A stretch of 34,086 nucleotides of DNA from assembly GCA_017934185.1 (NCBI GenBank), contig JAGBJY010000032.1, positions 1 to 34,086 on the forward strand, in the 5' to 3' direction. The position numbers and the translations under genes were made by a program. This document shows positions 184 through 20,883 of this stretch, piece after piece (the stretch's first letter is position 1; each line of letters opens with the position of its first letter). A model generated the notes under the pieces. It was not told where the DNA came from, searched no databases, and saw only the letters and a list, made by a program, of their open reading frames with translations. Source of the stretch: Bacteroidales bacterium (GTDB lineage Bacteria; Bacteroidota; Bacteroidia; Bacteroidales; UBA932).

Positions 184-2001
184 TTAAATTTCTTGCAATT
201 CCAGCCAGCGCATCTCTGCGGCATCCAGTTCTTCCTGCAGGGTGCCATAGCGGGCCGATGCTTCCAGCAGCTCCTGCCCCTGGAGCGTTCCGCTGCAGAG
301 TCGGGTTTCCAACTCGGCCTTTTCCGCTTCCAGCCCCGGCAGCTTTTCCTCCAGGGCCCTGAGTTCCTGCTGCTCCTTCCAGGAGAGCTTGCGCCTGGAA
401 GATGCCCGGTCGGTGCCGGGCATGTCGGATCCCTTGCCGGGCATGACGGGTTTGGACTTTTTAGCGTCATGGCCGGTCTGATCGGCCATCTTCTTCCCGG
501 CCTCATAATCCTTGATGAACGTCCTGTACTCCGTGTAATTGCCGATGAAGTCCTTCACCACGCCGTCTCCGCAGAACACAAAGAGGTGGTCTACCAGGCG
601 GTCCAGGAAGTGACGGTCGTGCGAGACAATCAGGAGCGAGCCCTTGAACTCCTGCAAGTACTCTTCCAGCACTTCCAGCGTCACAATGTCCAGGTCGTTG
701 GTGGGCTCGTCCAGGATAAGGAAATTGGGCTGCCGCATAAGGATGGTCAGCAGGTACAGCCGCCTTCTCTCCCCGCCGGAAAGCCGCTCTACGGGCGTTT
801 GCAGCATGTCGTGCGGGAACAGGAAGCGGCTCAGAAGATGGGTGTCATTCACGGTCTGGAGCACCGTCTGGCCGGGTTTGAACTGCATGCCGGCCTGGTG
901 ATAATAGCCGATTTTCAGCGATTCCCCCAGGTCTATCACGCCTTCCAGCGTTCCGCCCAGCTCCGGCGTCCATCCGCCCGTGATGAGGTTCAGGAAGGTG
1001 GTCTTGCCGCTGGCATTCCGGCCCACGATGCCCACGCGCTCATAGCGCTGGAAATTGTAGGTGAAGTGGCTCAGGTAGCACTGATTCTCCCACCAGAAAC
1101 TCACGTCCTTGCAGTTGATTACCTTGTTCCCCAGATAAGTGCTTTTGGCCTGGGTCTCGGAAAGGTCCACCTGCTTCTGGACGTAGCTGTCATCGGCCCG
1201 ATCCTTGATGTCCCAGAAGGCCTGCTTGCGGTATTTGGCTTTGCCGGTGCGGGCGCAGGGGCTGGCGTGCATCCACTCCAGCTCCCGCCTGTAGAGATTT
1301 CTAACCTTCTCTGTCTCAGCGTTGTAGTTGTCTATCCGTTCCTGGCGCTTTTCCAGGAAGTTCATGTAGTCGCCGCGATAGATGTAAATCTTGCCCCGGT
1401 CCAGTTCCATCACGGTATTGCACACGCGGTCCAGGAAATAGCGGTCGTGGGTAACCATGAAAAGGGTGCAGCGGCTGTGCCTGAGATGACTTTCCAAAAA
1501 CTCGATGGCGTCCAGGTCCAAGTGGTTGGTGGGCTCGTCCATGATGTAGAAATCGGCCTCGGAAGAGAGCATGGCGGTGAGGGCCACGCGTTTCACTTCC
1601 CCGCCGGAAAGGCCGCTCATGGGCTTGTCCGCATCGGTGAGTCCGAACTGGGTCAGCAGCTGCTTCACCTTTAACTCATACTGCCACAGATGGTCCGGAT
1701 CGAGCCCCCGGGTCCACTGCCGGGAACTCTCCATAAGCTGCTCCCAGATACTGTTCTTCGGATTGTAAGCGTACTCCTGCTCCAGGAATGCAATGCGTAT
1801 GTCTTTGAGAAACAGCACCTTCCCGCCGCTGTCCGATGCGTCCTTCCCCGCCAGTATCTTCAGCAGCGACGTCTTCCCCGTCCCGTTGGGCGCTATGAGA
1901 GCCACCTTGTCGCCCTCATTGATATTGAACCCAATCCCGCTGAACAGCACCTTGGGCCCGTAACTCTTGGAAATATTCTCAATCTGAAGATAACTCGACA
2001 T
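184..2001 (-). CDS. uup: ABC-F family ATPase, Uup type
   Basis: A soluble protein of 605 residues with two ABC ATPase domains in tandem and no membrane segments, which is the ABC-F arrangement. These proteins act on ribosomes or, for Uup, on branched DNA intermediates and ribosome-linked processes. Domain 1 has Walker A APNGTGKT (37-44), signature LSGGEVKR and Walker B IMDEPTNHLD. Domain 2 has GRNASGKTT, LSGGERRRL and ILDEPTNDLD. A charged C-terminal coiled coil (about residues 535-605) follows, as in Uup. The ATG at 2001 was chosen because the protein then begins right before the first ABC domain and a TATCTTTG promoter box lies 8 bases upstream; a longer frame would run through the REP element. 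The linker at about residues 519-534 is encoded by a palindromic repeat (separate entry). The family is certain, the Uup subgroup likely. Confidence 0.92.
   Translation of the reverse strand: MSSYLQIENISKSYGPKVLFSGIGFNINEGDKVALIAPNGTGKTSLLKILAGKDASDSGGKVLFLKDIRIAFLEQEYAYNPKNSIWEQLMESSRQWTRGLDPDHLWQYELKVKQLLTQFGLTDADKPMSGLSGGEVKRVALTAMLSSEADFYIMDEPTNHLDLDAIEFLESHLRHSRCTLFMVTHDRYFLDRVCNTVMELDRGKIYIYRGDYMNFLEKRQERIDNYNAETEKVRNLYRRELEWMHASPCARTGKAKYRKQAFWDIKDRADDSYVQKQVDLSETQAKSTYLGNKVINCKDVSFWWENQCYLSHFTYNFQRYERVGIVGRNASGKTTFLNLITGGWTPELGGTLEGVIDLGESLKIGYYHQAGMQFKPGQTVLQTVNDTHLLSRFLFPHDMLQTPVERLSGGERRRLYLLTILMRQPNFLILDEPTNDLDIVTLEVLEEYLQEFKGSLLIVSHDRHFLDRLVDHLFVFCGDGVVKDFIGNYTEYRTFIKDYEAGKKMADQTGHDAKKSKPVMPGKGSDMPGTDRASSRRKLSWKEQQELRALEEKLPGLEAEKAELETRLCSGTLQGQELLEASARYGTLQEELDAAEMRWLELQEI
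401..447 (+). repeat. GAT-hairpin-ATGAC palindromic repeat, two adjacent units inside the ABC-F gene
   Basis: Read on the plus strand, unit 1 (401-426) starts with GAT, has the stem ATGCCCGG/CCGGGCAT (402-409 with 416-423), and ends ATGTC. Unit 2 (428-447) starts GAT, has the weaker stem CCC/GGG, and ends ATGAC. The pair keeps the ABC-F frame open and encodes residues 519-534 in the linker between the second ATPase domain and the coiled coil. The first unit matches the xerC copy at 20664-20688, with a compensatory change of the innermost stem pair. Confidence 0.7.
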
Positions 2002-2009
2002 AGCGCCTG

Positions 2010-2017
2010 CAAAGATA
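2010..2017 (-). promoter_or_regulatory. Promoter -7 box of the ABC-F gene
   Basis: TATCTTTG on the minus strand matches the Bacteroidetes sigma-ABfr consensus TAnnTTTG. Only 8 bases separate it from the start codon at 2001, so the transcript leader would be at most a few bases. No clear TTG box is seen upstream. Confidence 0.6.
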
Positions 2018-2032
2018 CGAAAAAACTGCGAG

Positions 2033-2123
2033 GTGTGCATGAAGGTCCATCGCTTGGACCCTCGCGAGCAAAAATGGGGGTAAAATGCTCGTGAAGGTCC
2101 AAACCGTGGACCCACATGCACAC
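2033..2123. repeat. REP-like double-hairpin palindromic element, copy A
   Basis: A 91-bp imperfect palindrome. The outer arms GTGTGCATG (2033-2041) and CATGCACAC (2115-2123) are perfect inverted repeats. Two hairpins follow one another: GGTCCA-tcgct-TGGACC (2044-2060) and GGTCCA-aaccg-TGGACC (2096-2112). Between them CGCGAGCA (2063-2070) pairs with TGCTCGTG (2086-2093), with one G-T pair. Each GGTCCA hairpin is preceded by CRTGAA. A second copy lies at 7632-7721. The element sits immediately upstream of a REP-associated transposase gene, the usual setting for a REP sequence and its RAYT. Confidence 0.85.
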
Positions 2124-2150
2124 GGAACCAAAATTTTTATCAAAAAAGCC

Positions 2151-2181
2151 TTGCAAATAACTGATTCTATGTCTATTTTTG
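2151..2181 (+). promoter_or_regulatory. Promoter of the RAYT / helicase pair
   Basis: TTG (2151-2153), then 20 bases, then TATTTTTG (2174-2181), matching the Bacteroidetes TTG / TAnnTTTG pattern with proper spacing. The start codon is 33 bases further on, so this gene has a true leader. The sequence GGAGTAAGAGGAT just before the ATG is purine-rich and could serve as a ribosome binding site. Confidence 0.65.
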
Positions 2182-2214
2182 TACAGGAACTCCATTCTAA
2201 CGGAGTAAGAGGAT

Positions 2215-3087
2215 ATGATGGGTCAGAGCGAATTCTATCTGGTTTCAACCGACCACCTGGAAACAACACTGTGGTTCAGGGATGAAGATGATTTTAAACA
2301 GGGGATGAATGCTGTAGCATTGATTGCTTCAGTCGCGCACGTATGTGTAGTGGCCTTTATTCTAATGTCCAACCATGTTCATTTCTTACTGCAATGCAGC
2401 AAAGGCAAAGCTGCCCTGTTTATTGAGTCCTACAAGAGCCAGTATTCACGCTACTACAGCAAAAAATATGGCGTGAAAGAACTCCTTAGAAGAAATGGTG
2501 TGGATATCAGGGAAATACCTCTGGAGAATGAATCGCTAGAGAGAGCTATCGCTTATGTCCAGGCCAACCCTGTTGCCGCAAACATCTGCCTCTCCGCCTC
2601 CGACTATCCCTGGGGTAGCGGAAGCTGTTTTTTCCGCCCATCTCCACTCATGGGCACACCGCTTGAATCACTCAGCAAACGGAAACAGTACTCTCTTCTG
2701 CACAGCCGGCAGTCAGTTTCGGAAAGGCTGATTATTGGAGCAGAAGGATATATTGATCCACGCAGTTATGTTAACATCCATCTGGTAGAATCTGTTTTCC
2801 GCACCCCAAAAAGGATGAATTTTTTCCTCCTCAACTCTTCCAAAGCCAAACGGCGCCTGGAAAATGACTCCGACATTCCCGCTTTCCGTGATCAGGTGGT
2901 TTCATCGGCTCTGGGAGACCTATGCACAACCTTGTTCGGTACGCCAAGTTTCAATACCCTCTCAGAGCAAGGTCAGGCAGAGATTCTTAAGCAGGTAAAA
3001 TACCGCTTTTCTTCCAACGTACACCAACTCTCGCGCGTATGCGGAAAAGATTATGAAGAGGTCTGTCATCTTCTGGAAACAGTATAA
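2215..3087 (+). CDS. REP-associated tyrosine transposase (RAYT), Y1/HUH superfamily
   Basis: A protein of 290 residues. The N-terminal half is a Y1_Tnp (IS200-like) domain: the metal-binding HUH motif is MSNHVHFLL with H54 and H56, followed by a helix with candidate nucleophile tyrosines (Y73, Y77, Y80, Y81; the YSRYY stretch). The segment YVQANPVAANICLSAS-YPWGSG is typical of Bacteroidetes RAYTs. The C-terminal part (about 230-290) is helical and ends in what looks like a helix-turn-helix. RAYTs nick single-stranded REP hairpins and are linked to the spread of REP sequences. REP-like copy A lies just upstream and copy B at 7632. No terminal inverted repeats or target duplications delimit an IS. 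It is more AT-rich than its neighbours, which suggests later acquisition. ATG at 2218 is an alternative start. Confidence 0.85.
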   Translation: MMGQSEFYLVSTDHLETTLWFRDEDDFKQGMNAVALIASVAHVCVVAFILMSNHVHFLLQCSKGKAALFIESYKSQYSRYYSKKYGVKELLRRNGVDIREIPLENESLERAIAYVQANPVAANICLSASDYPWGSGSCFFRPSPLMGTPLESLSKRKQYSLLHSRQSVSERLIIGAEGYIDPRSYVNIHLVESVFRTPKRMNFFLLNSSKAKRRLENDSDIPAFRDQVVSSALGDLCTTLFGTPSFNTLSEQGQAEILKQVKYRFSSNVHQLSRVCGKDYEEVCHLLETV

Positions 3088-3089
3088 GT

Positions 3090-5234
3090 ATGGAAATTGT
3101 GAAAGACCGCCTTTTTGCGCTGGCGGAGAAATACGTGAATGAGACGGGCGTGTCGGTGTTCCTTACCGGAAAGGCGGGGACGGGAAAGACCACGTTCCTC
3201 CGGTACATCGTGGAGCATACGTGCAAGCGGGCTGTGGTGCTGGCTCCCACGGGCGTGGCGGCCGTGAACGCCCAGGGAAGCACCATCCATTCGTTCTTCG
3301 GCCTGCCGCTGTGCCCTTACCTGCCAGACGTTCCGGAGCTCCAGACGGAGTACCAGATGCCGGAGCGCTACAGGCGCATAAAACGCGATAAGGAACGGAT
3401 TATCAAAACCTTGGACCTTCTCATTATTGACGAGATTTCCATGGTCCGGGCCGATTTGCTGGACGCCGTGGACATGAGCCTCAGGCGCCTGAGGCATTCG
3501 GACAAGCCCTTTGGCGGAGTCCAGCTTCTGATGATTGGCGATGCCCAGCAGCTTTCCCCAGTGGTCACCGAACAGGAGCGGCCGTACATCCAAAGAGTGT
3601 ACCCCTCGCCGTATTTCTTCCACTCCAAGGCGCTGCTGCGGCTCCATTACGTAACTATTGAATTACAAGCAATTTACCGTCAGGAAGACCAGGCCTTTAT
3701 TAACCTTCTCAACGCCGTACGGGAGCAACGTCTGAGCCGGGAAATGCTCCAGAAACTCAATTCACGCGTGGGCGCTCCAGCCGGTGAAGACTGGATTCGC
3801 CTTACCACCCACAACGTACAGGCCGACAGCATCAACCAGGAAAAGATGGCCGCCCTTCCCAGTAAGGAACACATCTTTGAGGCCTCCATTCAAGGTGACT
3901 ACCCCGAAAGCCTGTACCCCGCAGCAACGCAGCTGCATCTGAAAGTGGGAGCACGGGTGATGTTCCTCCGCAATGACCCGGAAGGCCAGTTCTACAACGG
4001 CAAAATAGCCACGGTCTCTGAAATCCATCCGGAGGCGGTTCAAGTGACCGATGATAAGGGTAAAGAGCTCACCGTCAGCAGGATGTCCTGGGAGAACATG
4101 CAGTATAGCCTGAATGAAGAAAACGGAGAAATTGAGCAGAAAACCATCGGCTCGTTTTCCCAGTTTCCGCTGCGTCCTGCCTGGGCCATTACCATTCACA
4201 AGAGCCAGGGCCTTACCTTCGAGCATGTGATTATCGATGCCGGCGCCGCCTTCGCTTTCGGGCAGGTGTACGTGGCCCTGTCCCGCTGCCGCTCGCTGGA
4301 AGGCATTTCGCTCTCGCGTCCCATCACGCCGTCCGTGCTTTTCCAGGAGGCCGATGTCACTGCCTTCCACGCCGGTTTCCCCAGCGTAAACTCAGTAGCC
4401 GAAGCCCTTCCTTCCTGGCAACAGCGCTACGCCCAGGACCTAAGGGCCGATTGTTTCACCTTCGAAGCGCTCCGGCAGCAGCTCTGCACCCTTCGGAAAC
4501 TCTGGCGCGAGCATCTGGGAAAAGCGCATCCGGAGCTTTTGGAAACCCTGGAAAAAGCAAGCTCACAAGTGATTGAGGCAGAGTCAGTTGCTCTCCGGTT
4601 CCGCAAACAGATGGCAGCGCTCTCCACGCAAGCATCGGCCCTGAAAGAGAGGATGGAAAAGGCGGCGGCCTATTTCCTGCCCATCTTGGAGGGCCTTCCT
4701 GTACGCACCTGGCTTTCGGCCGAAATCGGGAATGCCGAGCTGCGCAAACGGGTGCAGCGGCTGGGCGCCGAATTGCTCCCCCAGTGGCAGATGCATCTGC
4801 TTACACTTCGGGAGGTACTGGCGAACGGTTTTGACTCCGGCAAATACTTGAAGCTCAGGACGCAAGCCTTGCTGGGCGAAGCGGGCCCGCGGAAACAAGC
4901 CCGGAAACTCAAAGAGCCCAAGCCGGAGAAAGTGCCCACAACGCAGCAGACCCTGGCCCTGTACCGGGAAGGCCTGGACCTCAGTGCCATTGCCCGGCGC
5001 CGGGAACTGAGCCAGGAAACCATCTTCCGCCACCTGCTGTCCTTTGTGGAAAGCGGAGAGGTGGACATCCACGACCTTGTGCCGGAAGAGCATCTGCTGG
5101 CCGTAGTGGACTACTTTACGCAGCATCCGGAGGTGACGATGCTCTCGCCCTGCTATGAAGCCCTGGGCGGTGCCGTTCCGTATGAGGAGATCCGTGCCGT
5201 CCGGTATTGGATGAAACCCGGCGAGCGTGCATAA
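3090..5234 (+). CDS. PIF1/RecD-like superfamily 1 DNA helicase with C-terminal HTH domain
   Basis: 714 residues. Walker A GKAGTGKT (27-34), motif Ia LAPTGVAA, Walker B IIDEIS (112-117), motif III GDAQQLSPV (150-158), a late HKSQGLTFEHV motif and motif VI YVALSRC. This set defines the PIF1/RecD branch of SF1 helicases, which move 5'-3' on DNA and resolve structures such as hairpins and G-quadruplexes. The middle (about 430-610) is helical. The last hundred residues contain a helix-turn-helix of the kind found at the end of bacterial PIF1-like helicases. The gene begins 2 bases after the RAYT stop and has no promoter of its own in that gap, so it probably shares the RAYT transcript. Its stop lies 7 bases from the stop of the convergent lplA. 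Confidence 0.88.
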   Translation: MEIVKDRLFALAEKYVNETGVSVFLTGKAGTGKTTFLRYIVEHTCKRAVVLAPTGVAAVNAQGSTIHSFFGLPLCPYLPDVPELQTEYQMPERYRRIKRDKERIIKTLDLLIIDEISMVRADLLDAVDMSLRRLRHSDKPFGGVQLLMIGDAQQLSPVVTEQERPYIQRVYPSPYFFHSKALLRLHYVTIELQAIYRQEDQAFINLLNAVREQRLSREMLQKLNSRVGAPAGEDWIRLTTHNVQADSINQEKMAALPSKEHIFEASIQGDYPESLYPAATQLHLKVGARVMFLRNDPEGQFYNGKIATVSEIHPEAVQVTDDKGKELTVSRMSWENMQYSLNEENGEIEQKTIGSFSQFPLRPAWAITIHKSQGLTFEHVIIDAGAAFAFGQVYVALSRCRSLEGISLSRPITPSVLFQEADVTAFHAGFPSVNSVAEALPSWQQRYAQDLRADCFTFEALRQQLCTLRKLWREHLGKAHPELLETLEKASSQVIEAESVALRFRKQMAALSTQASALKERMEKAAAYFLPILEGLPVRTWLSAEIGNAELRKRVQRLGAELLPQWQMHLLTLREVLANGFDSGKYLKLRTQALLGEAGPRKQARKLKEPKPEKVPTTQQTLALYREGLDLSAIARRRELSQETIFRHLLSFVESGEVDIHDLVPEEHLLAVVDYFTQHPEVTMLSPCYEALGGAVPYEEIRAVRYWMKPGERA

Positions 5235-5241
5235 TGTACGT

Positions 5242-6180
5242 TTAACTGAAAAGGGATGTGAATTCTGCTGGCGTAAGGGCATCGAAGTAGGGAGAGACGT
5301 CCAGGGCGGCCAGGTCTTCCAGACGCAACCCTTTGAGGCGGGCGGCCAGGTCCGAGGCGGGGCGGTTGCCCAGGAAGTCGCCGCCGAACGCTACGTTTTC
5401 CAGCACGCCGTGATTAAGGCTGTAGCGCACTTCCACCGTTCCGCAGGCAAATTTCCGCCGGCTTTGGAAACTGGCCGATGGCGAGTGGCCGTAAATCCAC
5501 TCCCACTGGCGGAATCTCTCATCGGCAAGGCGGTCGATGGAGCGCAGCTGGTCCGGGGTAAGGCACACCTGCGGGGAGCCATCGGCCAGAATCCCGTGCA
5601 GGGCATCGCGGAAACTCAAAATGTCCGGGAACTGGGGCAAATAGTCGCGCAAATTGGCCACCCGGCTGCGTACAGAGGCAATTCCGGCGGCTTCCAGCTT
5701 GCTGCCGGGAACGCGCAGTGCTTCCGTAAGAACCTCAATATCCACGTCCCACATGAGCGTGCCGTGAATCATCATGCGGTCTTTTGAGAGCCGCTTGGCA
5801 TAGCCGGAGCACTTGTGGCCGTCTACCAGAATGTCGTTGCGGCCGGAGCGCTCGGCGGAAACGCCCAGCTGCCGAAGCACGGCGGGCATGGTTTCAAAGG
5901 CGTTTTCCATTTCCCGGATGGGCCCGGCAATGCTGTAATTGAGGTTTTGAAGGTCGTGGTATACCGCACCGCCGCCGGTTACACGCCGGGCCAGCTGGAT
6001 GCCGTGGGCCTCAAGATACGGAAGATTCACCTCCGCGTAAGCACTCTGATTGAGGCCGATAATCACGGCCGGAGCATTCCTCCAAAGGCAGAAAACCTGC
6101 TCCTGCAGGCCTTCCAGCAGGAATTCGTCATGCGCCATGTTCCAGGCGGCATCGGTATGGTCATTCAATATGTACTTCAT
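5242..6180 (-). CDS. lplA: Lipoate--protein ligase A family protein
   Basis: 312 residues. It activates lipoate (or octanoate) with ATP and attaches it to a lysine of 2-oxoacid dehydrogenase E2 subunits or GcvH. The family signature RRVTGGGAVYHD (65-76) forms the lipoyl-AMP loop, and NDILVDGHKCSG contains the expected active lysine (K123). The C-terminal third resembles the LplA accessory domain. ATG at 6180 gives the usual N-terminus (MKYILNDHTDAAWNMA); a longer frame would run past the mnmA promoter. An E3 gene (lpd) lies two genes away, which fits a role in lipoate-dependent dehydrogenases. Confidence 0.88.
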   Translation of the reverse strand: MKYILNDHTDAAWNMAHDEFLLEGLQEQVFCLWRNAPAVIIGLNQSAYAEVNLPYLEAHGIQLARRVTGGGAVYHDLQNLNYSIAGPIREMENAFETMPAVLRQLGVSAERSGRNDILVDGHKCSGYAKRLSKDRMMIHGTLMWDVDIEVLTEALRVPGSKLEAAGIASVRSRVANLRDYLPQFPDILSFRDALHGILADGSPQVCLTPDQLRSIDRLADERFRQWEWIYGHSPSASFQSRRKFACGTVEVRYSLNHGVLENVAFGGDFLGNRPASDLAARLKGLRLEDLAALDVSPYFDALTPAEFTSLFS

Positions 6181-6188
6181 AGAGGGTG

Positions 6189-6221: not shown

Positions 6222-7631
6222 GTGGACAAGTCAAAGATAAAAGTTTGCATCGGGCTTTCCGGCGGGGTAGACTCGTCGGTGGCGGCGTACCTTCTCAAGA
6301 AAGAGGGCTACGACGTTTTTGCCATGTTCATGCAAAACTGGCATGAGGCCGATGCAACGCTCCATGGCGACTGCGAGTGGGAGGAAGACCGTTTTGTGGC
6401 CGAAATGGTGGCCCGCAAAATAGGCATTCCTTTCTATTTTGTGGACCTTTCGCGCACCTATCGTCAGCGGGTGGTGGACTACATGTTTGACGAATACGCC
6501 AAGGGCCGCACCCCCAACCCGGACGTCCTGTGCAACCGAGAAATCAAGTTCGACGCCTTCCTTGAGGTGGCGATCAAGTATGGGGCCGATTATGTGGCCA
6601 CGGGGCACTATTGCCGGAAGGAGATCCTTCGCTCCGCTCAGGATGACAAAGCGGTTTATCGGATCATGGAGGGCACGGACCCTAACAAAGACCAGACGTA
6701 TTTCCTCTGTCAATTGTCGCAGGAGCAGCTTTCCAAGGCGCTTTTCCCCATCGGCCACCTGACCAAACCTGAGGTGCGGCGCATTGCCAAGGAGGCCGAC
6801 CTGCCATCGGCCGAAAAGAAGGATTCGCAGGGCATCTGCTTTGTGGGAAAGGTGGATTTGCCCACTTTCCTAAAGCAGAAACTGACGTCTGTGGAAGGCC
6901 CCGTGGTAGAAGTTTTTGATGCCTATTATGCCGATAATCCGCTGTACCAGTGGCAACAAAGCTTCCTGACAGGGATTTTGAAACCGGGCGCAACGCTGGA
7001 GCGCACCGTGCGGTATGCCCCGGAAGAGAAAGTCCTTACATCCGATGGGAAACCTTTGGGCGAAAGTCCGTTCCGGGAAGAGGCCGTGGCGGCCCTTAGG
7101 GATGCGGAACTGGACCATCTGGCCCTGCCTGTCAAGTACGATATTGCTTTTGAGACGGAAACTTACCGCTCCGGAAAGCACCATATCAAGAAGACGCGCT
7201 ATAAGGAGAATCCCCACGGCCGCATTGTGGGAACGCACGAAGGTGCGCAGTTCTATACCATCGGCCAGCGGAAAGGATTGGGCATTGGAGGACACTCGGA
7301 GCCCGTTTTTGTCATTGCTACGGATACTTCTTCCAATACCGTTTACGTGGGCGAGGGGCATCACCATAAGGGGCTCAGCCGCTTCTGCCTCAGGATTGCT
7401 GCTTCGGAAGTGCACTGGATACGCCCGGACCTTGCCATGCCCGTTGGGGCCGTTCGCCGCTGCCGGGTGCGCATCCGTTACCGTCAGCCGCTCCAGAGCG
7501 CCACGCTTCTGATGCGCCCGGAGGGCCTGTACGTTCTTTTTGACGAGCCCCAACGCGGCATCTCGCCCGGCCAGTTCTGCGTCTGGTACGACGGAGAGGA
7601 AATGCAGGGCTCCGGTCCCATTCAGGCCTAA
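6222..7631 (+). CDS. mnmA: tRNA-specific 2-thiouridylase MnmA with a large insertion
   Basis: 469 residues; makes 2-thiouridine at position 34 of tRNA-Lys, -Glu and -Gln. The PP-loop is GLSGGVDSS (11-19). The catalytic cysteines are C104 (DVLCNREIKF) and C206 (SQGICFVGK). DPNKDQTYFL and YTIGQRKGLGIGG are family motifs, and the C-terminal beta-barrel domain is present. Usual length is about 350-380. The excess is mostly a charged insertion at about residues 226-332, between the FLKQKL segment and GTHEGAQFYTIGQRKG. A second, small insertion at residues 134-144 (EILRSAQDDKA) is encoded by a palindromic repeat. The start is GTG at 6222; TAA lies in frame just upstream, and the promoter box ends 4 bases before it, implying a leaderless mRNA. 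Confidence 0.93.
   Translation: MDKSKIKVCIGLSGGVDSSVAAYLLKKEGYDVFAMFMQNWHEADATLHGDCEWEEDRFVAEMVARKIGIPFYFVDLSRTYRQRVVDYMFDEYAKGRTPNPDVLCNREIKFDAFLEVAIKYGADYVATGHYCRKEILRSAQDDKAVYRIMEGTDPNKDQTYFLCQLSQEQLSKALFPIGHLTKPEVRRIAKEADLPSAEKKDSQGICFVGKVDLPTFLKQKLTSVEGPVVEVFDAYYADNPLYQWQQSFLTGILKPGATLERTVRYAPEEKVLTSDGKPLGESPFREEAVAALRDAELDHLALPVKYDIAFETETYRSGKHHIKKTRYKENPHGRIVGTHEGAQFYTIGQRKGLGIGGHSEPVFVIATDTSSNTVYVGEGHHHKGLSRFCLRIAASEVHWIRPDLAMPVGAVRRCRVRIRYRQPLQSATLLMRPEGLYVLFDEPQRGISPGQFCVWYDGEEMQGSGPIQA
6623..6648 (+). repeat. GAT-hairpin-ATGACA palindromic repeat inside mnmA
   Basis: A 26-bp unit starting GAT and ending ATGACA, with stem ATCCT (6624-6628) and AGGAT (6640-6644). It encodes ILRSAQDD in a loop between two strands of the PP-loop domain. 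The unit at 20858-20883 is the same word with ATTCT/AGAAT in the stem, a compensatory change, and one changed loop base. Reading frame and catalytic residues are intact. Confidence 0.75.
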
Positions 7632-7721
7632 GCGTGCATAAGGGTCCATGCGCTGGACCTTCAAGAGCAAAAACAGGGGTAAAATGCGCGTAAGAGTCCA
7701 GCGTTTGGACCTTCGCGAGCA
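7632..7721. repeat. REP-like double-hairpin element, copy B
   Basis: It fills the whole gap between the convergent stop codons of mnmA and lpd. Hairpin 1 is GGTCCA-tgcgc-TGGACC (7643-7659). Hairpin 2 is GTCCA-gcgtt-TGGAC (7696-7710). The spacer GAGCAAAAACAGGGGTAAAA closely matches copy A. The bases before the hairpins are CATAAG and CGTAAGA, against CATGAA and CGTGAA in copy A. The left end GCGTGCAT matches copy A, but the right end reads TTCGCGAGCAT, matching the 3' flank of copy A's first hairpin. It may also act as a terminator for both genes. Confidence 0.8.
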
Positions 7722-14495: not shown

Positions 14496-15365
14496 CTACA
14501 GTTTCACATGGAACTCGCCCATGTTCACCCCCATCCAGCCGGTCTGGACAACGGGGATGGGCTTGCCGTCCAGGTTCTTCACGTAGTCCGGCTCCTCCAT
14601 GAACGTATGGGAGTGGCCGCCCACAAAAAGGTCAATGCCCCTGGTAGCGGCGCAGAGGATGGGATCGGTGATGTCCCCGGGATTGTGTTCCGTGTAGCCG
14701 ATGTGCGTGAGGGCAATCACCAGGTCGCACTGCGGCCCAATTTCATCGGCATACTTTTGCAGGCTTTCCACCATGGGGAACTCCGGGACACGGTTGGCAA
14801 CGTCCCCGGCGACCATGTCCTTGAGGCCACAGAGCACGCCGATGACGCCAATCTTGAGACCGGCCTTCTCCACAATCACATAAGGTTTGATGAACTGCCC
14901 GGCCTTGAAGGGGGAAAAGTCGTAGTTGCACACCACGACAGGGCATTCCAGGCTTTCCAGAAGGTCTCCCATCGCCTCCAGGCCATTGTCAAACTCGTGA
15001 TTGCCAAGGGTAACCACGTCGTAGCGGTTGGCATTCAGCAGCTGCACCTCCACCTTCCCCTTGAACTCGGAGAAATAGGACGTGCCCTGGCAGAAGTCGC
15101 CGGCGTGCAGCAGCAGCACGTTCTCCGGCCCGTCGGCCTGGCGCACGGAATCTATGTACGCAGCGCGCTCCAGGGCGCCGCCGCGGCCCATGTATTCCCC
15201 GGAACGCTCGGCCTCGTTGTGGCTGTGCGTATCGTTCACATGGAGGATGGTGAGTTCGTGCCTGGCTTTCTTGCCGGCTTTCATTCCTACGCCAATGCAG
15301 TAGCCCAGCACGGCGCAGCCCGCTACTATCAGTCCTATCCGGACCACTTTGTCTTTCAGTTCCAT
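14496..15365 (-). CDS. 5'-nucleotidase, N-terminal metallophosphatase half
   Basis: 289 residues. The calcineurin-like phosphoesterase domain has all metal-site motifs: HVNDTHSH, HAGDFCQGT, TLGNHEFDNG, ALTHIGY and GGHSHT. This is the catalytic domain of UshA/5'-nucleotidase proteins; the substrate-binding C-terminal domain is absent and is encoded by the preceding gene. The N-terminus (IGLIVAGCAVLGYCIGVG) is a membrane anchor; VAGC could also be read as a lipobox. It starts 3 bases after the stop of its partner gene, so the two are co-transcribed. Confidence 0.88.
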   Translation of the reverse strand: MELKDKVVRIGLIVAGCAVLGYCIGVGMKAGKKARHELTILHVNDTHSHNEAERSGEYMGRGGALERAAYIDSVRQADGPENVLLLHAGDFCQGTSYFSEFKGKVEVQLLNANRYDVVTLGNHEFDNGLEAMGDLLESLECPVVVCNYDFSPFKAGQFIKPYVIVEKAGLKIGVIGVLCGLKDMVAGDVANRVPEFPMVESLQKYADEIGPQCDLVIALTHIGYTEHNPGDITDPILCAATRGIDLFVGGHSHTFMEEPDYVKNLDGKPIPVVQTGWMGVNMGEFHVKL

Positions 15366-15368
15366 ACG

Positions 15369-16262
15369 CTAGTCCTCCGTCATAATTACACGTCCGTCCG
15401 CCTGGCCGTGGACAAGTTCGCCACGGGCCTCGCAGCCCCGTACATAATCCAGCATCACATCCTGCAGCAGCACCCCGGAGAGTACCACATGCTCTGACAG
15501 GGCGCCGATATTGAGTTTGTCTCCGCCGTCCAGGAGGAAGTCGATGGTGATCACATTGTAAATTTTGTCCGGGACAATGGGCTGCCCGCCGATGAGCGCA
15601 CTCTCCAGCACATGGTTTTTCACGCGGATGGTTGCCCCGGAAGTGGCCTGGAAAGCCTTTGTTTCGGCCAACTGGTCAAAGAGCGTCAGGAGGGAAGAGC
15701 CCTTCATCTTGGCCCACACCATATAATTCCGGAAGGGGAACATGGAAGTGATGTCTTCCAGGGTGATGTCGCCCTTGGGCAGGGGCACGCGGATGCCACC
15801 GAAGTTGGTGAGGGCAAAGTCCATGGGCACCTTGAAATAGGCCGAGCCATAAGTGCGGAGCGCATCGGCAAAAAGGTTCCCCAGCGGAAGGTCAGGCTCG
15901 GTGCGGAGGTTCAGGAGCATGGCATCGCTGTGGCCGATGACCGCTTTGAGGGGTGCCAGCTGCTGCTGGGCCTCCATGAGCACCTGAGCAACGGCCGCTA
16001 CGGGGCTGTCATCGGCATAACGCACGCCGGAAGGGGCTACGTAACCTTCGTCGTCGAAGACGCCCAGGGCCCGGTCGATGTTCTCGCTGTTCACGGGAAC
16101 AGATTGCATGCGGTGTCCGTCCATGGGTACCGGCCGCCATGAGATTTTCGCTCCGTTATTCCGGGCGGCATTGAGGGCGGCAAAAAGCGCCCCCACGATA
16201 ATCAGCGCCCAGGCCAGATACCAGAGGTTTTGGTTTTTTACTTTTGTTTGAGCCATTTCCAC
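15369..16262 (-). CDS. 5'-nucleotidase, C-terminal domain as a separate membrane-anchored protein
   Basis: 297 residues. One membrane segment near the N-terminus (LWYLAWALIIVGALFAAL), then a domain matching the 5'-nucleotidase C-terminal (substrate-binding) fold: LGNLFADALR, FALTNFGGIRVPLPKGDIT, FPFRNYMVWAKMKGSSLL, and YNVITIDFLLDGGD. It likely forms a two-subunit enzyme with the metallophosphatase encoded next. In the operon the C-terminal half comes first, so this is not a broken gene or frameshift. The start overlaps the permease 3' end; ATG at 16262 or 16256 is possible. Confidence 0.85.
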   Translation of the reverse strand: MEMAQTKVKNQNLWYLAWALIIVGALFAALNAARNNGAKISWRPVPMDGHRMQSVPVNSENIDRALGVFDDEGYVAPSGVRYADDSPVAAVAQVLMEAQQQLAPLKAVIGHSDAMLLNLRTEPDLPLGNLFADALRTYGSAYFKVPMDFALTNFGGIRVPLPKGDITLEDITSMFPFRNYMVWAKMKGSSLLTLFDQLAETKAFQATSGATIRVKNHVLESALIGGQPIVPDKIYNVITIDFLLDGGDKLNIGALSEHVVLSGVLLQDVMLDYVRGCEARGELVHGQADGRVIMTED

Positions 16263-17647
16263 AAATCTTTAAACGTGGATTTTTTACCGTACATGAGAAT
16301 CCCCACCTTGTAAATCTTGGCCGATGCCCAGGCGCACACGAGGAAAGTGGCCACCAGCACCAGCATGCTTACAAGCAGTTCCCAGGTGGGCACGCCGAAA
16401 GGAATGCGGGAGAGCATCACAATGGGAGAGGTGAAGGGAATCATGGAGCCCCAGAACACCAGCGCGCTGTCCGGTGCCTTGAAGGCGTAGATGGCAATAA
16501 AGAAGCCCAGCATGAGCGGGATGGTTACGGGCAGCTGCAGCTGCGTGGAGTCGCCTTCGTTTTCTACGGCCGAGCCGATGGCGGCAAAAAGTGACGCATA
16601 CAGCAGGTAACCGAAGATGAAATACACGAGGAAGGAAAGCAGAATCTGCCCCAGGTTCAGGTTCCCGAGGGTGCTCATCACCACCTCCATTCCGCCAGGC
16701 TCACCGGCGGCCACGGCAGTGGTGTCCGTAGCGGCGGAGAGGGCCTCTTCCAGGGAAATATCCCCCACGTGCACACCTTCCGGGGTGGCCATCTGCTGCA
16801 CCATTTCCGTGGTGGATTCGTCATTGAACATGCCCATCATCCTGTCTTTGCCGATGATGCCCATGGCAACCGCCACCAGCACCAGGGTAAGGACAATCCA
16901 GAGGAAGAACTGGGTAACGGCCACCAGCGCCACGCCGATGATTTTACCAAACATGAGTTCCGTGGCCTTCACGGAAGACATCAGGACCTCCACCACGCGG
17001 GAGCTCTTCTCTTCAATGACAGAGCTCATGACCATGCCGGAGAAAAGGGCGATGAACATGTACAGCGCCATGCCCAGAATCATGGACAGGGCCATGTAGA
17101 TGCCGCTTTCGGAGATGCTTTCCTTGCCGCTTTCATCAATGGTGTAGCTGCGCAGCTTCACATGGGACTTGACCCCGGCCATGATTTCTTCCAGGTTCTC
17201 AATGCCGTAAGAATCAATGCGGTAGGCCTCCACGGCGTCGTTGATGCGGTTCTCGATGATTTCCCCGGTATCCAGACCCAGCGGTTTCTCGGAGTAGCTG
17301 TCGGCCTTCACCGTACGGTTTTCGCTGTCCAGCTCCGAAATGTTCACCAGGATATCAATTCCGTAGGCTTTCAAATCGGCCTTCACGGCCTCGGGGGAAG
17401 CCTCGGGGCCCAGGTCGATGAAATGCGTGACCTCATTGTCCGTGAAATACGGCATCACAATGCCGCTGCGGTCAATTACGCCCACTTTCTTGGCCTCTTC
17501 CTTGGCGCCCAGCATGATGAGGGAAGGGAGCACGGCAATGCCGGCAAAGAGCACCGGGGCCAGGAAAGTGATGAGGAGGAAACTCTTTTTCTTAACCTTG
17601 TTAAGATACTCGCGCTGGACAATAATACCTAACTTCTTGAAATTCAT
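16238..17647 (-). CDS. ABC-2 type exporter permease (NatB-like)
   Basis: 469 residues. One hydrophobic segment near the N-terminus (LLITFLAPVLFAGIAVLP), a large extracytoplasmic loop of about 150 residues, then about five membrane segments in the C-terminal half, interrupted by a second soluble loop (GDISLEEALSAATDTT). SSVIEEKSSRVVEVLMSSV is the family hallmark that precedes the transmembrane core. The substrate cannot be told; relatives export ions, peptides or antibiotics. The ATPase gene ends 3 bases upstream. Confidence 0.88.
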   Translation of the reverse strand: MNFKKLGIIVQREYLNKVKKKSFLLITFLAPVLFAGIAVLPSLIMLGAKEEAKKVGVIDRSGIVMPYFTDNEVTHFIDLGPEASPEAVKADLKAYGIDILVNISELDSENRTVKADSYSEKPLGLDTGEIIENRINDAVEAYRIDSYGIENLEEIMAGVKSHVKLRSYTIDESGKESISESGIYMALSMILGMALYMFIALFSGMVMSSVIEEKSSRVVEVLMSSVKATELMFGKIIGVALVAVTQFFLWIVLTLVLVAVAMGIIGKDRMMGMFNDESTTEMVQQMATPEGVHVGDISLEEALSAATDTTAVAAGEPGGMEVVMSTLGNLNLGQILLSFLVYFIFGYLLYASLFAAIGSAVENEGDSTQLQLPVTIPLMLGFFIAIYAFKAPDSALVFWGSMIPFTSPIVMLSRIPFGVPTWELLVSMLVLVATFLVCAWASAKIYKVGILMYGKKSTFKDLWKWLKQK

Positions 17648-17650
17648 AGT

Positions 17651-18505
17651 CTATTCCTCCTCCGTTACAAGTTTAATGAAAATGTCGTTCATGCGCGGAA
17701 TCACCTCTTTGAAGGAGTTGATGGTATAGTCCTGGGCAATGAGCTCGTGCAGCTTGGCATTCACCTGGGGACGGGCCACTACCAGGGTCCTGCGGTCCAG
17801 GGTCTGGTCGGTGTACTCAATCTCCACATTGTCTTCGCCGTGCTGACGGCGGATTTCCTCCGTACCGCCCGTCACCACCAGTTTGGCCTTATTGATAAGG
17901 GCAATGTTGTCACAGAGCGCCTCCACGGATTCCATGTTGTGGGTGGAGAGGATGATGGTAGCCCCCTCCTCCTTCAGGCGCAGGATTTCTTTACGGATCA
18001 GTTCCGCGTTCACCGGGTCAAAGCCGGAAAAAGGCTCGTCCAGAATCATGAGGGAAGGTTTGTGCACCACCGTTGTGATGAACTGCACCTTCTGGGCCAT
18101 GCCTTTGGAAAGCTCTTCCACCTTCTTGTTCCACCAGTCCTGAATTTCAAAACGGACAAACCATTTCTTCAGTTCCACGGCGGCATCGTGGGCGCTCATG
18201 CCCTTGAGCTGGGCAAAGTACATGGCCTGGTCCCCCACCTTCATTTTGCGGTACAGGCCGCGCTCCTCCGGCAGGTAGCCGATACGGGCCACGTCTTCCT
18301 CCGTGATGGGATGTCCCTGGAACCAGACTTCGCCCGTCGAGGCGATGGTAATGCGGTTGATAATGCGGATGAGGGTGCTCTTCCCCGCTCCGTTGGGGCC
18401 CAGCAGGCCGAAAATCTTGCCCTCCGGTATCTCCAACGACACATTGTCCAGTGCCACTTTGGGTCCGAAGGACTTGGAAACGTTTTTTACTTCTATAATT
18501 GCCAT
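17651..18505 (-). CDS. ABC transporter ATP-binding protein (partner of the permease)
   Basis: 284 residues. Walker A GPNGAGKST, Q-loop region GYLPEERGLY, signature LSKGMAQKV, Walker B LMILDEPFSGFD, H-loop STHNM. A C-terminal extension of about 80 residues follows, as in NatA/DRA-type ATPases. ATG at 18505 was preferred over the TTG two codons upstream. It is the first gene of the operon that continues with the permease and the two 5'-nucleotidase halves. Confidence 0.92.
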   Translation of the reverse strand: MAIIEVKNVSKSFGPKVALDNVSLEIPEGKIFGLLGPNGAGKSTLIRIINRITIASTGEVWFQGHPITEEDVARIGYLPEERGLYRKMKVGDQAMYFAQLKGMSAHDAAVELKKWFVRFEIQDWWNKKVEELSKGMAQKVQFITTVVHKPSLMILDEPFSGFDPVNAELIRKEILRLKEEGATIILSTHNMESVEALCDNIALINKAKLVVTGGTEEIRRQHGEDNVEIEYTDQTLDRRTLVVARPQVNAKLHELIAQDYTINSFKEVIPRMNDIFIKLVTEEE

Positions 18506-18521
18506 TGCCAATAGATTTCTG

Positions 18522-18551
18522 CAAATATAATAAATACTTATCGAATTGCAA
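18522..18551 (-). promoter_or_regulatory. Promoter of the ABC exporter / 5'-nucleotidase operon
   Basis: On the minus strand TTG (18551-18549), 19 bases, then TATATTTG (18529-18522), matching both Bacteroidetes boxes and spacing. The TTG box lies inside the last codons of holA. The leader to the ATG at 18505 would be about 10 bases. Confidence 0.75.
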
Positions 18552-19545
18552 TAATTTTTGTAATCAATTCAACAAGCAGATCCCCTTGCGAGGCTTCGCC
18601 GGCATCGCCGCCCTTGCCTTTGTAGTCATACTCGCACAGCAGCGACACCACGCTGCGGCACCGGGCCAGGGAGTAATTGCGCGCGGCGGCATCGTACTCT
18701 TTGAGGAAGTAAGGATTCACCTTGGGCGTTTCCCCGGCGTGATACTTGAGGATGCGGTAAAAATGATTGAACAGCGGAGCCACGGCCGCGGGCAGGGCAA
18801 AACGCGGCGTTTCGCCAATGCGGGCGGCAATTTGCAGCGCTTTGGCACTTTCCCGGTAACTGAGGCACTTGGTGAGCTCAAAAATGCTGTACTGGCGGCT
18901 CACCCCCACGTTTTTCTCCACATCGGCCACCGAGATTTCCCGGGTGCCTTCCGGAAGGTTCTTCAGGAGTTTCTCGGTCTCTACCGCTATTTTGCCAAGG
19001 TCGGTGCCGGCGCTTTCGGCCAAAAGACGGGCGGCCTCGGGATGAATCTTCAGCCCCCTGCTTTCATAATAGGAGGCTATCCACTGGGGCATTTCGTAGT
19101 CCCTGAGCGGCAGCGACTCCACCACAACGCCCGTTTTGAGCACGTTCTTGTACAGGGCCTTGCGTTTATCGGCCGATGCCCCGTGCATTAGAATCACCAG
19201 CACGGTGCTGTCCAGGGGCTGCTGGCAGTAGAGGGCCAGTTCCTCCAGCGACTTCATCTGCTGGGCCTCTTTCACCACCACCAACTGGCGCTCCGCCATC
19301 ATGGGAAAGCGCCGTGCGGCGGTGATAACGGTGTCGGCATCCACATCGGCCCCGTAACAGATGGTTTCGTTGAAGTCCTTTTCCCAGTCCTGGAGGCAAT
19401 TGTCGATGATGCCGCTGCACACCAGCTCCGGGTAATAAGGCTCTTCGCCCATAAGTAAATATACAGACTTGAAGATGCCGCTGCGGACATCTTCAAGGAT
19501 CTGGGACACCTGTTTTTGGGTCTCTATGTAACTTTTACCGGCCAC
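18538..19545 (-). CDS. holA: DNA polymerase III delta subunit
   Basis: 335 residues; the clamp-loader subunit that opens the beta sliding clamp. Typical features are the N-terminal IFKSVYLLMGEEPYYPEL, MMAERQLVVVKEAQQM, a stretch of small helices with LLAESAGTDLGKIAVETEKL, and the C-terminal collar helices. The start is GTG at 19545, two bases after the hpf stop (TAA AA GTG); the next in-frame methionine would remove the conserved N-terminal strand. Last gene of the operon that starts at 22724. Confidence 0.9.
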   Translation of the reverse strand: MAGKSYIETQKQVSQILEDVRSGIFKSVYLLMGEEPYYPELVCSGIIDNCLQDWEKDFNETICYGADVDADTVITAARRFPMMAERQLVVVKEAQQMKSLEELALYCQQPLDSTVLVILMHGASADKRKALYKNVLKTGVVVESLPLRDYEMPQWIASYYESRGLKIHPEAARLLAESAGTDLGKIAVETEKLLKNLPEGTREISVADVEKNVGVSRQYSIFELTKCLSYRESAKALQIAARIGETPRFALPAAVAPLFNHFYRILKYHAGETPKVNPYFLKEYDAAARNYSLARCRSVVSLLCEYDYKGKGGDAGEASQGDLLVELITKIIAIR

Positions 19546-19547
19546 TT

Positions 19548-19838
19548 TTATTTGGAGAATTTCTTCTCCTTTGCGCGGACAATGCGCTCTTTGAGGGCAT
19601 CGGCGGCATCCGTTACTGCCTCTTCAAAAGTGCGGGCCTGGCGCTCTATAATCAGGTCCTCGCCAGGGATGTGGGTCTGAAGTTTGACACTTTTGTTCTC
19701 CGCGTCCGGGAGCAGGCTCAGGGTGACATCGATGTCACTCATGTTGTCGAAGAACTTTTCCACTTTTCCAACTTTGGTGTCAATAAAGTCCAGCAGCTTC
19801 TGGTCTGCATTGAACTTGAGGGACTTAACATTAATCAT
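19548..19838 (-). CDS. hpf: Ribosome hibernation promoting factor, short form
   Basis: 96 residues, beta-alpha-beta-beta-beta-alpha S30AE/YfiA fold; binds the decoding centre of the 30S subunit in starved cells. INVKSLKFNADQKLLDFIDTKV and the C-terminal helix AVTDAADALKERIVR are characteristic. It lacks the C-terminal dimerisation domain of long HPF. The ATG overlaps the end of xerC by 8 bases, suggesting coupled translation; xerC-hpf is a pairing known in Bacteroidetes. Confidence 0.93.
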   Translation of the reverse strand: MINVKSLKFNADQKLLDFIDTKVGKVEKFFDNMSDIDVTLSLLPDAENKSVKLQTHIPGEDLIIERQARTFEEAVTDAADALKERIVRAKEKKFSK

Positions 19839-20823
19839 CTCTACCAGTGTTTTTTGCCCTTGGATGGGCGTTCATGTATTGTGTCCTCAGCCGCTGTACA
19901 CTGTTGTGGGTATAGACCTCCGTGGCGGCCAGAGAAGAGTGGCCCAGCATTTCTTTAATGGCATTCAGGTCTGCTCCTTCCTGCAAAAGCGCCGTTGCGA
20001 GCGAGTGCCTGAGTACGTGGGGGGACTTCCTCCCGGTAATGCTGCTGCCGTCCAATTCTGCCTTCACAGCCCTGTCTACGAACTCCGGATAGAGGGCTTT
20101 TCCCTTGTCCGTTGTGAGAAGAGGGCTTTCTGCCGACCTTTCCCCGCCAGTGACAAAACTAGCTGCATTCAAATATAATGAAATTTCTTCAAGTATGGAA
20201 GGAATCAGTGGAATTTCTCGCATTTTATCTCCTTTTCCCAAAACGCGGAGATGTCCGCGGGAAAAATCCACGCTGGCCACCCTGAGGCCGATAAGCTCGG
20301 CCCGGCGGATGCCGCTCACGTACAAAAGATGCACAATAAGACGCCGTAATCGCCTGTTATACAGCTCTTTACAGAGCTTACTGCCCGCTTCGGTGCTGTG
20401 CAGCAGCTCCAGGGCATCGGCCGATGCCGCATAAGCGCTCTGCTCCAGGTACTCCTCCATGGAAAGCTCCGAGTAATACTCCGGCAGGCGTTTTTCCATT
20501 TTGGGCCGGCGGACACTCCGGACAGGATTGGACTGAAGGCGGCTCTGCTTCATGAGGTAGGCGCAAAAGCCGCTGAGGGCGCTCAGGTGCAGGTGCACCG
20601 TCCGGGGCTTCATGCCCCGCTCAATGAGGGTGGCCTCGTACTGCCGGATACGGGAAGGGATAAGATGCCCGATCAAGTCGGGCATGACGTCACCCCCGAC
20701 CTGTTCGGGGGGCTCTGCCCATACGGCAAAGTCCTCCAGGGCTTCACGGTACAACGTCAGTGTCCGCGGAGAATACCGCCGGACATCACGTAAGTAATTG
20801 ATATACGCATCAATACTTGTCAT
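19831..20823 (-). CDS. xerC: Tyrosine recombinase, XerC/XerD type
   Basis: 330 residues; a chromosome dimer-resolution type recombinase. Catalytic set complete: R173 (SGIRRAEL), K197 (GKGDK), H269 and R272 (HVLRHS), H295 (LGHSS) and nucleophile Y304. The N-terminal SAM-like domain is interrupted at about residues 37-54 (PPEQVGGDVMPDLIGHL) by sequence from a palindromic repeat, and a further small insertion lies near 142-158. The ATG at 20821-20823 is itself part of another repeat unit. It belongs to the cca-xerC-hpf-holA operon. Calling it XerC rather than XerD rests on the hpf neighbour. Confidence 0.9.
   Translation of the reverse strand: MTSIDAYINYLRDVRRYSPRTLTLYREALEDFAVWAEPPEQVGGDVMPDLIGHLIPSRIRQYEATLIERGMKPRTVHLHLSALSGFCAYLMKQSRLQSNPVRSVRRPKMEKRLPEYYSELSMEEYLEQSAYAASADALELLHSTEAGSKLCKELYNRRLRRLIVHLLYVSGIRRAELIGLRVASVDFSRGHLRVLGKGDKMREIPLIPSILEEISLYLNAASFVTGGERSAESPLLTTDKGKALYPEFVDRAVKAELDGSSITGRKSPHVLRHSLATALLQEGADLNAIKEMLGHSSLAATEVYTHNSVQRLRTQYMNAHPRAKNTGRDD
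20664..20711 (+). repeat. Palindromic repeat with two hairpins inside xerC
   Basis: Hairpin 1: GAT, then stem ATGCCCGA/TCGGGCAT (20665-20672 and 20678-20685) around TCAAG, ending ATGAC (20684-20688). Hairpin 2: CCCCCGA/TCGGGGG (20693-20699 and 20705-20711) around CCTGT. The insertion keeps frame and encodes residues of the N-terminal DNA-binding domain. Unit 1 of the ABC-F repeat (401-426) has the same stem with G-C in place of the innermost A-T pair. Confidence 0.75.
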
Positions 20824-20883
20824 TCTGAGCGAAGCCTTGTCATTCTGAGCGCAGCCTTGTCATTCTGAGCGCAGCGAAGAATC
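20818..20883 (-). repeat. Three tandem repeat units spanning the cca/xerC junction
   Basis: Two 20-bp truncated units (20818-20837, 20838-20857) and one full 26-bp unit (20858-20883) in tandem. Read on the minus strand, the full unit starts GATTCTTCGC and ends AGAATGACA. It encodes the last residues of the CCA enzyme (SSLRSE) and its TGA stop, and the last unit supplies the ATG (ATGACA) of xerC. The unit is the same word as the one in mnmA at 6623-6648. Confidence 0.8.

Follow-up and report, generated by a model that had tools for sequence, protein, structure and literature searches.

The closest described counterparts of the elements studied here are the repetitive extragenic palindromes (REPs) of the CGTC superfamily, which includes the Rickettsia palindromic elements RPE-4 and RPE-6 as well as Neisseria dRS3 (CGTC-1) and was described without a dedicated transposase (PMC3733652). 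According to that description, CGTC repeats had already been reported from Bacteroidetes among five phyla, most though not all of their tails fit CCA, and the recB repeats of two Xanthomonas species nearly coincide in position, with other genes carrying them at different sites. For Bacteroidetes, a subclass of REP-associated tyrosine transposases (RAYTs) with atypical structures has also been described (PMC6006769). Here, we analysed a 34,086 nt-long stretch of Bacteroidales DNA (the window; GenBank assembly GCA_017934185.1, contig JAGBJY010000032.1), in which short hairpins of two sequence classes sit inside an ABC-F ATPase gene, mnmA and xerC, and at the junction of cca and xerC. With a probability of roughly three in four, we take them to be CGTC-type REPs or REP doublets forming hairpins (REPINs), i.e. 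non-autonomous, multicopy DNA hairpins with fixed ends and exchangeable stems, which would spread via single strands and be tolerated in protein linkers. The host genome comprises 2.13 Mb in 62 contigs (85.8% complete; the window is contig C25), and the window's MnmA is nearest to proteins of uncultured Bacteroidales metagenome-assembled genomes (MAGs), many of them ruminant, with Candidatus Cryptobacteroides among the remoter matches.

The palindromes that an earlier note, made from the letters alone, had placed in mnmA (6623-6647), in xerC (20664-20688) and at the cca/xerC junction (full unit 20859-20883) are present, and dinucleotide shuffles of the window gave no match to the class 1 or class 2 pattern. 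For ABC-F, the proposed copy at 401-426 stood, except that it ends in ATGTC and not ATGAC, while the second one (428-447) is truncated and forms no full hairpin. The ABC-F and xerC inserts had in addition been seen only in part, as their inverted partners (466-490 and within 20663-20716, respectively) were missed. Because of these partners, which extend over 465-491 and 20688-20716, both inserts are head-to-head dimers of class 2 (Table 1): the one in ABC-F spans about 400-491 in the linker preceding the C-terminal domain, and the one in xerC spans 20663-20716 with a degenerate second half. At the junction (20818-20883), a single full class 1 unit was found, the rest consisting of two truncated 20-nt units; here, repeat letters end cca with its stop codon (GAA TGA) and open xerC with its start codon (ATG ACA).

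Both classes are multicopy families. The genome-wide covariance-model search that had been proposed returned at least 89 class 2 and at least 54 class 1 copies in the host genome (143 together; E ≤ 0.01), and 1085 class 2 and 661 class 1 copies at the same threshold in a genus sample of 41 genomes; single genomes of this group reach 128 copies of one class. Across a phylum sample of 247 genomes, the host genome included, at least 32 held class 2 and at least 64 class 1 (E ≤ 1e-4); the counts for the host genome and the phylum sample are lower bounds, as scoring was confined to the 150 or 30 highest-ranking first-look candidates per genome. A pattern search of the host genome found 29 class 1 copies (up to two mismatches) and 19 class 2 copies (up to three), and the reversed control pattern gave no match for either class. 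Class 1 was further detected in 118 stretches of viral contigs and class 2, scanned with a narrower pattern, in two.

Class 2 takes the form CGTC-AT..CCGR-loop-YCGG..AT-CT, that is, a CGTC head, an 8-bp stem starting with AT, a loop of 5 or 6 nt (mostly C, two or three letters and GA), and CT after the stem. Pairing held in 97.4% of cells over 34 distinct sequences, with changes on both sides at pair 3 (G-C, T-A, C-G, A-T), pair 4 (C-G, G-C) and pair 8 (A-T, G-C). The covariation score was 0.364 against 0.120 in shuffled alignments, none of 500 shuffles scoring as high and slid structures reaching at most 0.112; for class 1, it was 0.265 against 0.140, again unequalled in 500 shuffles. The hairpin-preserving paired changes noticed in a handful of copies are hence borne out by larger alignments of both classes.

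Class 1 reads TGTC ATTCT GA GC GNA GC GA AGAAT CT and consists of a 5-bp stem, a GA/GA 2x2 step, two further base pairs and a 3-nt loop, giving a GCGNAGC apex in which N takes all four letters. The widening from GAA to GNA triloops and a context rule for tandem sheared G-A pairs are general background to this motif. Extraordinary stability as a DNA hairpin has been reported for GCGAAGC itself (PMC6582339, citing Hirao 1994). Among the listed matches in environmental viral contigs, 134 of 151 had a GNA triloop and 134 of 137 a GA/GA 2x2 step; the inner letters were GC/GC in 134 of 171 (AC/GT in 16), and the outer letters formed compensating pairs (TC/GA, CC/GG, GT/AC, GC/GC, AC/GT) in 140 of 141; these tallies lean towards the consensus, as they include the 118 stretches, fetched with a pattern fixing GNA, GA/GA and GC/GC, and the relaxed scans, which added 10 new loci and 1 new locus among the matches listed, under-count other letters. 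The complement strand has TC/TC in place of GA/GA and no GNA loop, so the class 1 letters are meaningful on one strand only. We read this as probable selection on single-stranded DNA of the GTC strand.

The ends are shared between the classes. In all 48 pattern copies of the host genome, one end is GTCAT and the opposite one ATC, mismatches there being allowed, and T follows ATC in 45 of them. The base before GTC, left free in the search, was C at a frequency of 0.82 in 98 class 2 copies and T at 0.95 in 59 class 1 copies. After the stem, where the C is fixed by the search pattern and the letters beyond it are the informative ones, T followed ATC at 0.98 (class 1) and 0.95 (class 2), with little conservation further out. 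Among AT..AT hairpins in 1.45 Mb, GTC was the commonest head (53 hairpins), ahead of CGG (37), and the 63 possible heads other than GTC averaged 15.5; the 53 come from mnmA neighbourhoods, orthologous sites being counted several times. With the tail left free, CT followed 43 of these 53. Class 2 pairs within 80 nt were arranged head-to-head in 19 cases, tail-to-tail in 4 and head-to-tail in 4, and two same-class pairs were seen for class 1. In 18 of the 19 head-to-head dimers the halves differ at stem positions 3-4, and 13 join a 5-nt to a 6-nt loop. With about 5 of 19 like pairs expected from pooled half frequencies and several of the dimers orthologous, this suggests a trend towards unlike halves.

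In-frame placement within genes, assigned by codon statistics to 157 copies (6 of 163 at locus ends were dropped, and orthologous sites count repeatedly), was found for 47, namely 38 of 98 class 2 and 9 of 59 class 1 copies; eight further copies share the frame on both sides but meet a stop. Hosts in the genome at hand include IspG, an HI0933-type flavoprotein, a ketoacyl synthase, a major facilitator superfamily (MFS) transporter, an acyltransferase, two GH3 glycosidases, an amino-acid kinase and, by a weak match, an alpha-2-macroglobulin-type protein. As had been proposed, the coding copies that were read keep the frame, the mnmA copy lying at a beta-turn and the ABC-F copy in a linker; they also lack stops. 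Ribosomes skipping such hairpins, in the manner of the bypassing palindromes described for a yeast mitochondrion (PMC6649704), would equally place palindromic insertions within coding sequences, yet bypassing is not needed for gene-borne copies that keep frame and lack stops, and we consider it highly improbable. The hairpins might also act as mRNA elements in stability, termination or attenuation, their spread being secondary. Such a role would accommodate the 110 of 157 copies not placed in frame inside a gene, and REPs elsewhere are thought to act on transcripts (as described in PMC3733652); nevertheless, it appears improbable, given that copies inside genes lie in linkers amid the coding sequence and face either way (class 2: 22 anti, 16 same) and that the GCGAAGC apex of class 1 is documented for DNA (PMC6582339).

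Several host genes showed arrangements of their own. One alpha-2-macroglobulin-type protein (locus L037) carries repeats at two separate sites, with three detected hairpins. In two species, an amino-acid kinase family protein carries a similar dimer at one shared position (L047 and L077:8045-9004; GPYY-[E/K]EIPDQVGNDG..DRPS-QYRQ), which may reflect either common descent or recurrence. At the mnmA site of L065, the class 1 copy is followed by in-frame tandem repeats of 21 nt (unit peptide NEGMQDD), and the ABC-F linker of L080 (14364-14511) holds three tandem, in-frame copies of one dimer half (MADQVGHDAKGAK repeated).

Comparison of orthologues revealed that the same few linkers are filled by different repeats. 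In MnmA, the site flanked by GHYC and by the strand preceding G-D-P-N-K was labelled with hand-written patterns in 69 of 81 loci (12 were left out); we counted 9 class 2 repeats, 5 class 1 repeats, 4 other GTC-AT hairpins, 50 sites without a recognised repeat and 1 ambiguous case, where the label "no repeat" takes in half-repeat remnants (L075-L077) and the long inserts of L066 and L067, and where the site of L069, counted as another hairpin, resembles a decayed class 1 copy. All 16 hairpins detected in the 69 mnmA coding regions (12 loci) lie at this one beta-turn site, and all 13 detected in 28 ABC-F genes (7 loci) lie in one linker; at both sites, different species carry different classes. 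In the predicted MnmA structure (mean predicted local distance difference test score, pLDDT, 71; block values of 78 and 83 at the repeat peptide), residues 134-143 cover the last part of strand 130-137 and the turn that leads into strand 144-150, and a solved MnmA structure is five residues shorter at this position. For a TolC-like protein, 16 of 18 loci could be resolved: in 6, repeats occupy one linker, in another 6 the linker is of a native TSMPVWQIEPVATES type, and in the remaining 4 it has other letters. Two TolC-like paralogues of genome G011 hold a class 2 dimer and a class 1 dimer, respectively, at the same linker, where genome G023 has a further type. Similarly, two GH3 paralogues of the host genome contain class 1 versus class 2, both right after FAYSNL plus two residues. 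The xerC insert was present in the window only, among 31 aligned sequences (L153 is without the region and L163 has an unrelated long insert), and amounts to a net gain of 45 nt over the nearest, insert-free relative L135.

These comparisons bear on the possibility that the inserted segments are ordinary conserved protein features, as their in-frame position in well-defined genes might suggest. Orthologues (for mnmA, 47 of 80 fetched loci were aligned) either lack the segments or show different palindromes at the same spot: 50 of the 69 parsed mnmA sites are without a recognised repeat, the filled ones carry unrelated peptides, and the xerC segment is confined to the window. This refutes conserved peptides for mnmA and xerC, leaves the idea with practically no probability, and agrees with the proposal that the segments are repeats of a mobile type. 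The presence/absence patterns between orthologues point to mobility. On the MnmA tree, the filled sites all fall into one crown group with classes interleaved, several nodes being weak; judged from these sequences, one origin cannot explain the pattern. Further GTC-AT..AT-CT hairpin families were noted at the same sites (L056, L082, L084, L066, L068, L521; e.g. ATTTCGA..GAAAT and ATACCGAGCGAAGCGAG..GTAT).

Site reuse also speaks to a scenario without transposition, in which copies would arise or be replaced by recombination, gene conversion and template switching between repeats, together with uptake of foreign DNA. As the classes have their ends in common, an occupied site could pass from one class to another; reuse of sites by different classes is indeed observed; class 1 occurs in 118 viral-contig stretches; and no dedicated enzyme was found in 134 RAYT loci or among the groups of open reading frames (ORFs) recurring beside repeats in 108 loci. 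Against this stand the many loci involved (at least 143 copies in one genome at E ≤ 0.01) and the insert-free related genes, which show no recognisable repeat at the site, making the scenario unlikely. A single-strand DNA enzyme might repeatedly insert or swap hairpin classes at the same linkers via the shared AGAT/ATGAC ends, in which case the repeats would be exchangeable linker cassettes and the linkers of housekeeping proteins would turn over by cassette exchange, not point mutation; we hold this, too, to be a minority possibility.

We then considered which enzyme might act on the repeats. RAYTs, searched with an alignment (A1) of the five RAYT-like proteins of the host genome, occurred in 37 of the 41 genus genomes. 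All 22 genomes with at least 20 repeats hold at least one, the four RAYT-less genomes contain 3, 0, 0 and 1 repeats, and RAYT and repeat counts are correlated (Spearman 0.51). In 30 loci, no RAYT was flanked by a repeat (0/30). Neighbouring genes gave no other candidate: 108 loci yielded 558 ORFs lying no more than 300 bp from a repeat, and the groups recurring in three or more loci, which were TolC-like, cca and MutL-like (named by eye) plus their antisense ORFs, included no transposase. The earlier statement that no mobiliser is evident thus stands, the 134 RAYT loci showing no excess of repeats. A RAYT acting in trans is possible in view of the count correlation, which shared ancestry and gaps in the MAGs could produce as well.

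Mobilisation by the window's own RAYT would be in keeping with the distribution of its 35%-identity cluster, which is represented in 12 of 16 class-2-rich genomes, 12 of 13 class-1-rich genomes and 28 of 41 genomes overall (134 of 242 matches clustered). Yet this gene is flanked by a different palindrome, GGTCCA..TGGACC, as had been pointed out before, and none of the five RAYTs of the host genome has a class 1 or class 2 repeat within ~1.5 kb, which renders its involvement improbable. A RAYT subfamily tracking one class was rejected, as no cluster was universal among the 134 of 242 clustered matches. The palindrome upstream of the window RAYT (about 2033-2119; read by eye) is a twin within TGCATGAAGG..GCGAGCA, and a second GGTCCA..TGGACC-type pair follows mnmA (about 7632-7721; read by eye). 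Upstream of one RAYT of the host genome lies a symmetrical intergenic hairpin of neither class (L053, about 1170-1224; CGTCATTTC..GAAATGACG). The best lead towards a CGTC-associated RAYT is L451 (G064:C32:9040-10730), with CGTC-type hairpins ~390 bp upstream and ~140 bp downstream; in L396 (G004:C45:1750-3275), two consecutive CGTC hairpins precede a RAYT by ~300 bp.

In the mechanism that we favour for these CGTC-type repeats, an element with fixed ends, [C/T]GTC-AT ... AT-CT, sometimes joined head-to-head from two different halves, would propagate as a hairpin of single-stranded DNA, in the GTC-strand reading, and would probably be processed by an enzyme provided in trans, RAYT/HUH-type enzymes being the leading candidates. 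Copies landing in genes would survive only where a linker or beta-turn tolerates in-frame replacement, and this filter would lead to the same few linkers being reused in different species, and in paralogues, by unrelated members.

A number of observations weigh against this reading. Two of five covariation measures, both-side-changed pairs and further pair types, did not exceed shuffles in either class (class 2: 3 versus 2.5 and 8 versus 7.3), and the 37-row class 2 alignment combines 18 pattern matches from the host genome with 19 rows picked by a hairpin filter. Class 1 folding is weak under standard DNA parameters, which give no credit to the GNA/GA motifs (z from -0.48 to 0.38), and the two strands of the mnmA copy fold about equally (-2.7 versus -2.5 kcal/mol, same parameters); strand specificity and stability of class 1 therefore rest on the motif known from the literature. 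Location in frame by codon statistics covers 47 of the 157 copies. The MnmA tree required 13 label changes (9 for filled/empty), fewer than in any of 300 label shuffles (mean 18.4, minimum 16), so the pattern is partly inherited. Neither target-site duplication nor clean excision was evident in the xerC, TolC-like and mnmA comparisons, and filled sites replace native linker letters and are not simple additions. With respect to the enzyme, candidate hairpins occur in 5 of the 134 RAYT loci (of 242 matches) and number 7 in total, of which 3 fit the class 2 pattern, where ~6 copies would be expected by arithmetic from genus repeat density; no RAYT cluster is found in all repeat-rich genomes (134 of 242 matches clustered); and the correlation of RAYT and repeat counts is open to shared ancestry and MAG gaps.

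The mover of CGTC-type REPs was left open in 2013, and the present genome group offers a tractable place to settle it, owing to high copy numbers, pairs of filled and empty genes, and paralogues whose common linker holds different classes. Should the GTC strand adopt the fold implied by GCGNAGC, it is settled which strand and which substrate a biochemical search would have to use. More generally, parasitic DNA may supply new loops to essential proteins repeatedly without breaking them.

Table 1 Repeats and genes of the window, with strand and supporting detail.
Feature	Position	Strand	Detail
ABC-F ATPase gene	187..1998	-	Pfam ABC_tran (two) and ABC_tran_CTD (residues 537-603); NCBIfam ribosomal protection-like ABC-F, 381.7 bits (cut-off 380)
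Class 2 half in ABC-F	400..427	-	CGACATGCCCGGCACCGACCGGGCATCT; 6-nt loop, 8-bp stem, fold z -4.1
Truncated class 2 copy in ABC-F	427..447	-	GTCATGCCCGGCAAGGGATCC; no full hairpin
Inverted class 2 partner in ABC-F	465..491	+	CGTCATGGCCGGTCTGATCGGCCATCT (466-490 = GTCATGGCCGGTCTGATCGGCCATC); 5-nt loop, fold z -3.8
RAYT-like IS200-type transposase	2215..3087	+	Y1_Tnp 23.7 bits (cut-off 23); REP_Tyr_transpos 46.6 bits (under cut-off 80)
mnmA, tRNA 2-thiouridine(34) synthase	6222..7631	+	NF001138, 416.1 bits (cut-off 284)
Class 1 repeat in mnmA	6622..6648	-	TGTCATCCTGAGCGGAGCGAAGGATCT; in frame, encodes EILRSAQDDK (residues 134-143) on the mnmA strand
xerC	19831..20823	-	Profile matches; class 2 head-to-head dimer in N-terminal SAM-like region
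Class 2 half in xerC	20663..20689	-	CGTCATGCCCGACTTGATCGGGCATCT; fold z -5.1
Degenerate inverted partner in xerC	20688..20716	+	CGTCACCCCCGACCTGTTCGGGGGGCTCT; read from sequence
Class 1 array at cca/xerC junction	20818..20884	+	Two truncated 20-nt units and one full unit (20858-20884)

A search of the window against Rfam at the gathering threshold matched 5S rRNA alone, and no known RNA family covered the repeats; the 5S rRNA gene (33988-34086) runs off the contig end.

Compared with REPIN/RAYT systems (GTAG REPs), the repeats share the short hairpin with a head tetranucleotide, the inverted pairs and the presence of RAYT genes in the same genomes, but RAYT genes are not flanked by repeats beyond chance, which agrees with the 2013 view that CGTC repeats lack a dedicated transposase (as given in PMC3733652). 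From Neisseria dRS3, a CGTC-1 member by description, they differ in arrangement, as the CGTC elements of Neisseriae occur mostly in large clusters (PMC3733652) whereas mainly single copies and dimers were found here. The likeness to Rickettsia palindromic elements, drawn in the earlier note, proved apt: RPE-4 and RPE-6, placed in the CGTC superfamily, are described as CGTC-type palindromes in frame in protein genes (PMC3733652), although in another host phylum.

By the same textual description, class 2 fits the main tests of the superfamily except for the tail. Its 8-bp stem agrees with the 8-9 bp starting with AT given for CGTC repeats, for which class 1 (5 bp, GA/GA and 2 bp) is too short; loops of 4-5 nt are given there, compared with 5 or 6 nt in class 2 and 3 nt in class 1. 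The unpaired CGTC/TGTC head, the AT first stem pairs, the head-to-head dimers often of unlike halves, the in-frame intragenic copies and, in the 134 RAYT loci examined of 242 matches, the lack of any excess of repeats beside the transposase gene are all in line with the superfamily. In contrast, the tail is CT(C), CT following 43 of 53 hairpins, where CCA prevails elsewhere; given that the source assigns CCA to most CGTC repeats, not all, this weighs against the exact family and not against the superfamily. Judged by its letters, class 1 is CGTC-like with a different stem, a variant with a tandem G-A step, a 3-nt GNA loop and a GCGNAGC apex on the GTC strand. In the literature on RAYTs and REPs of Bacteroidetes/Bacteroidales, as far as those sources extend, we found no description of the two classes or of the reused sites, and no paper with class 1 letters concerned bacterial repeats, judged by title. 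New in these data are the DNA mini-hairpin apex and the reuse of the same protein linkers, across species and paralogues, by unrelated members.

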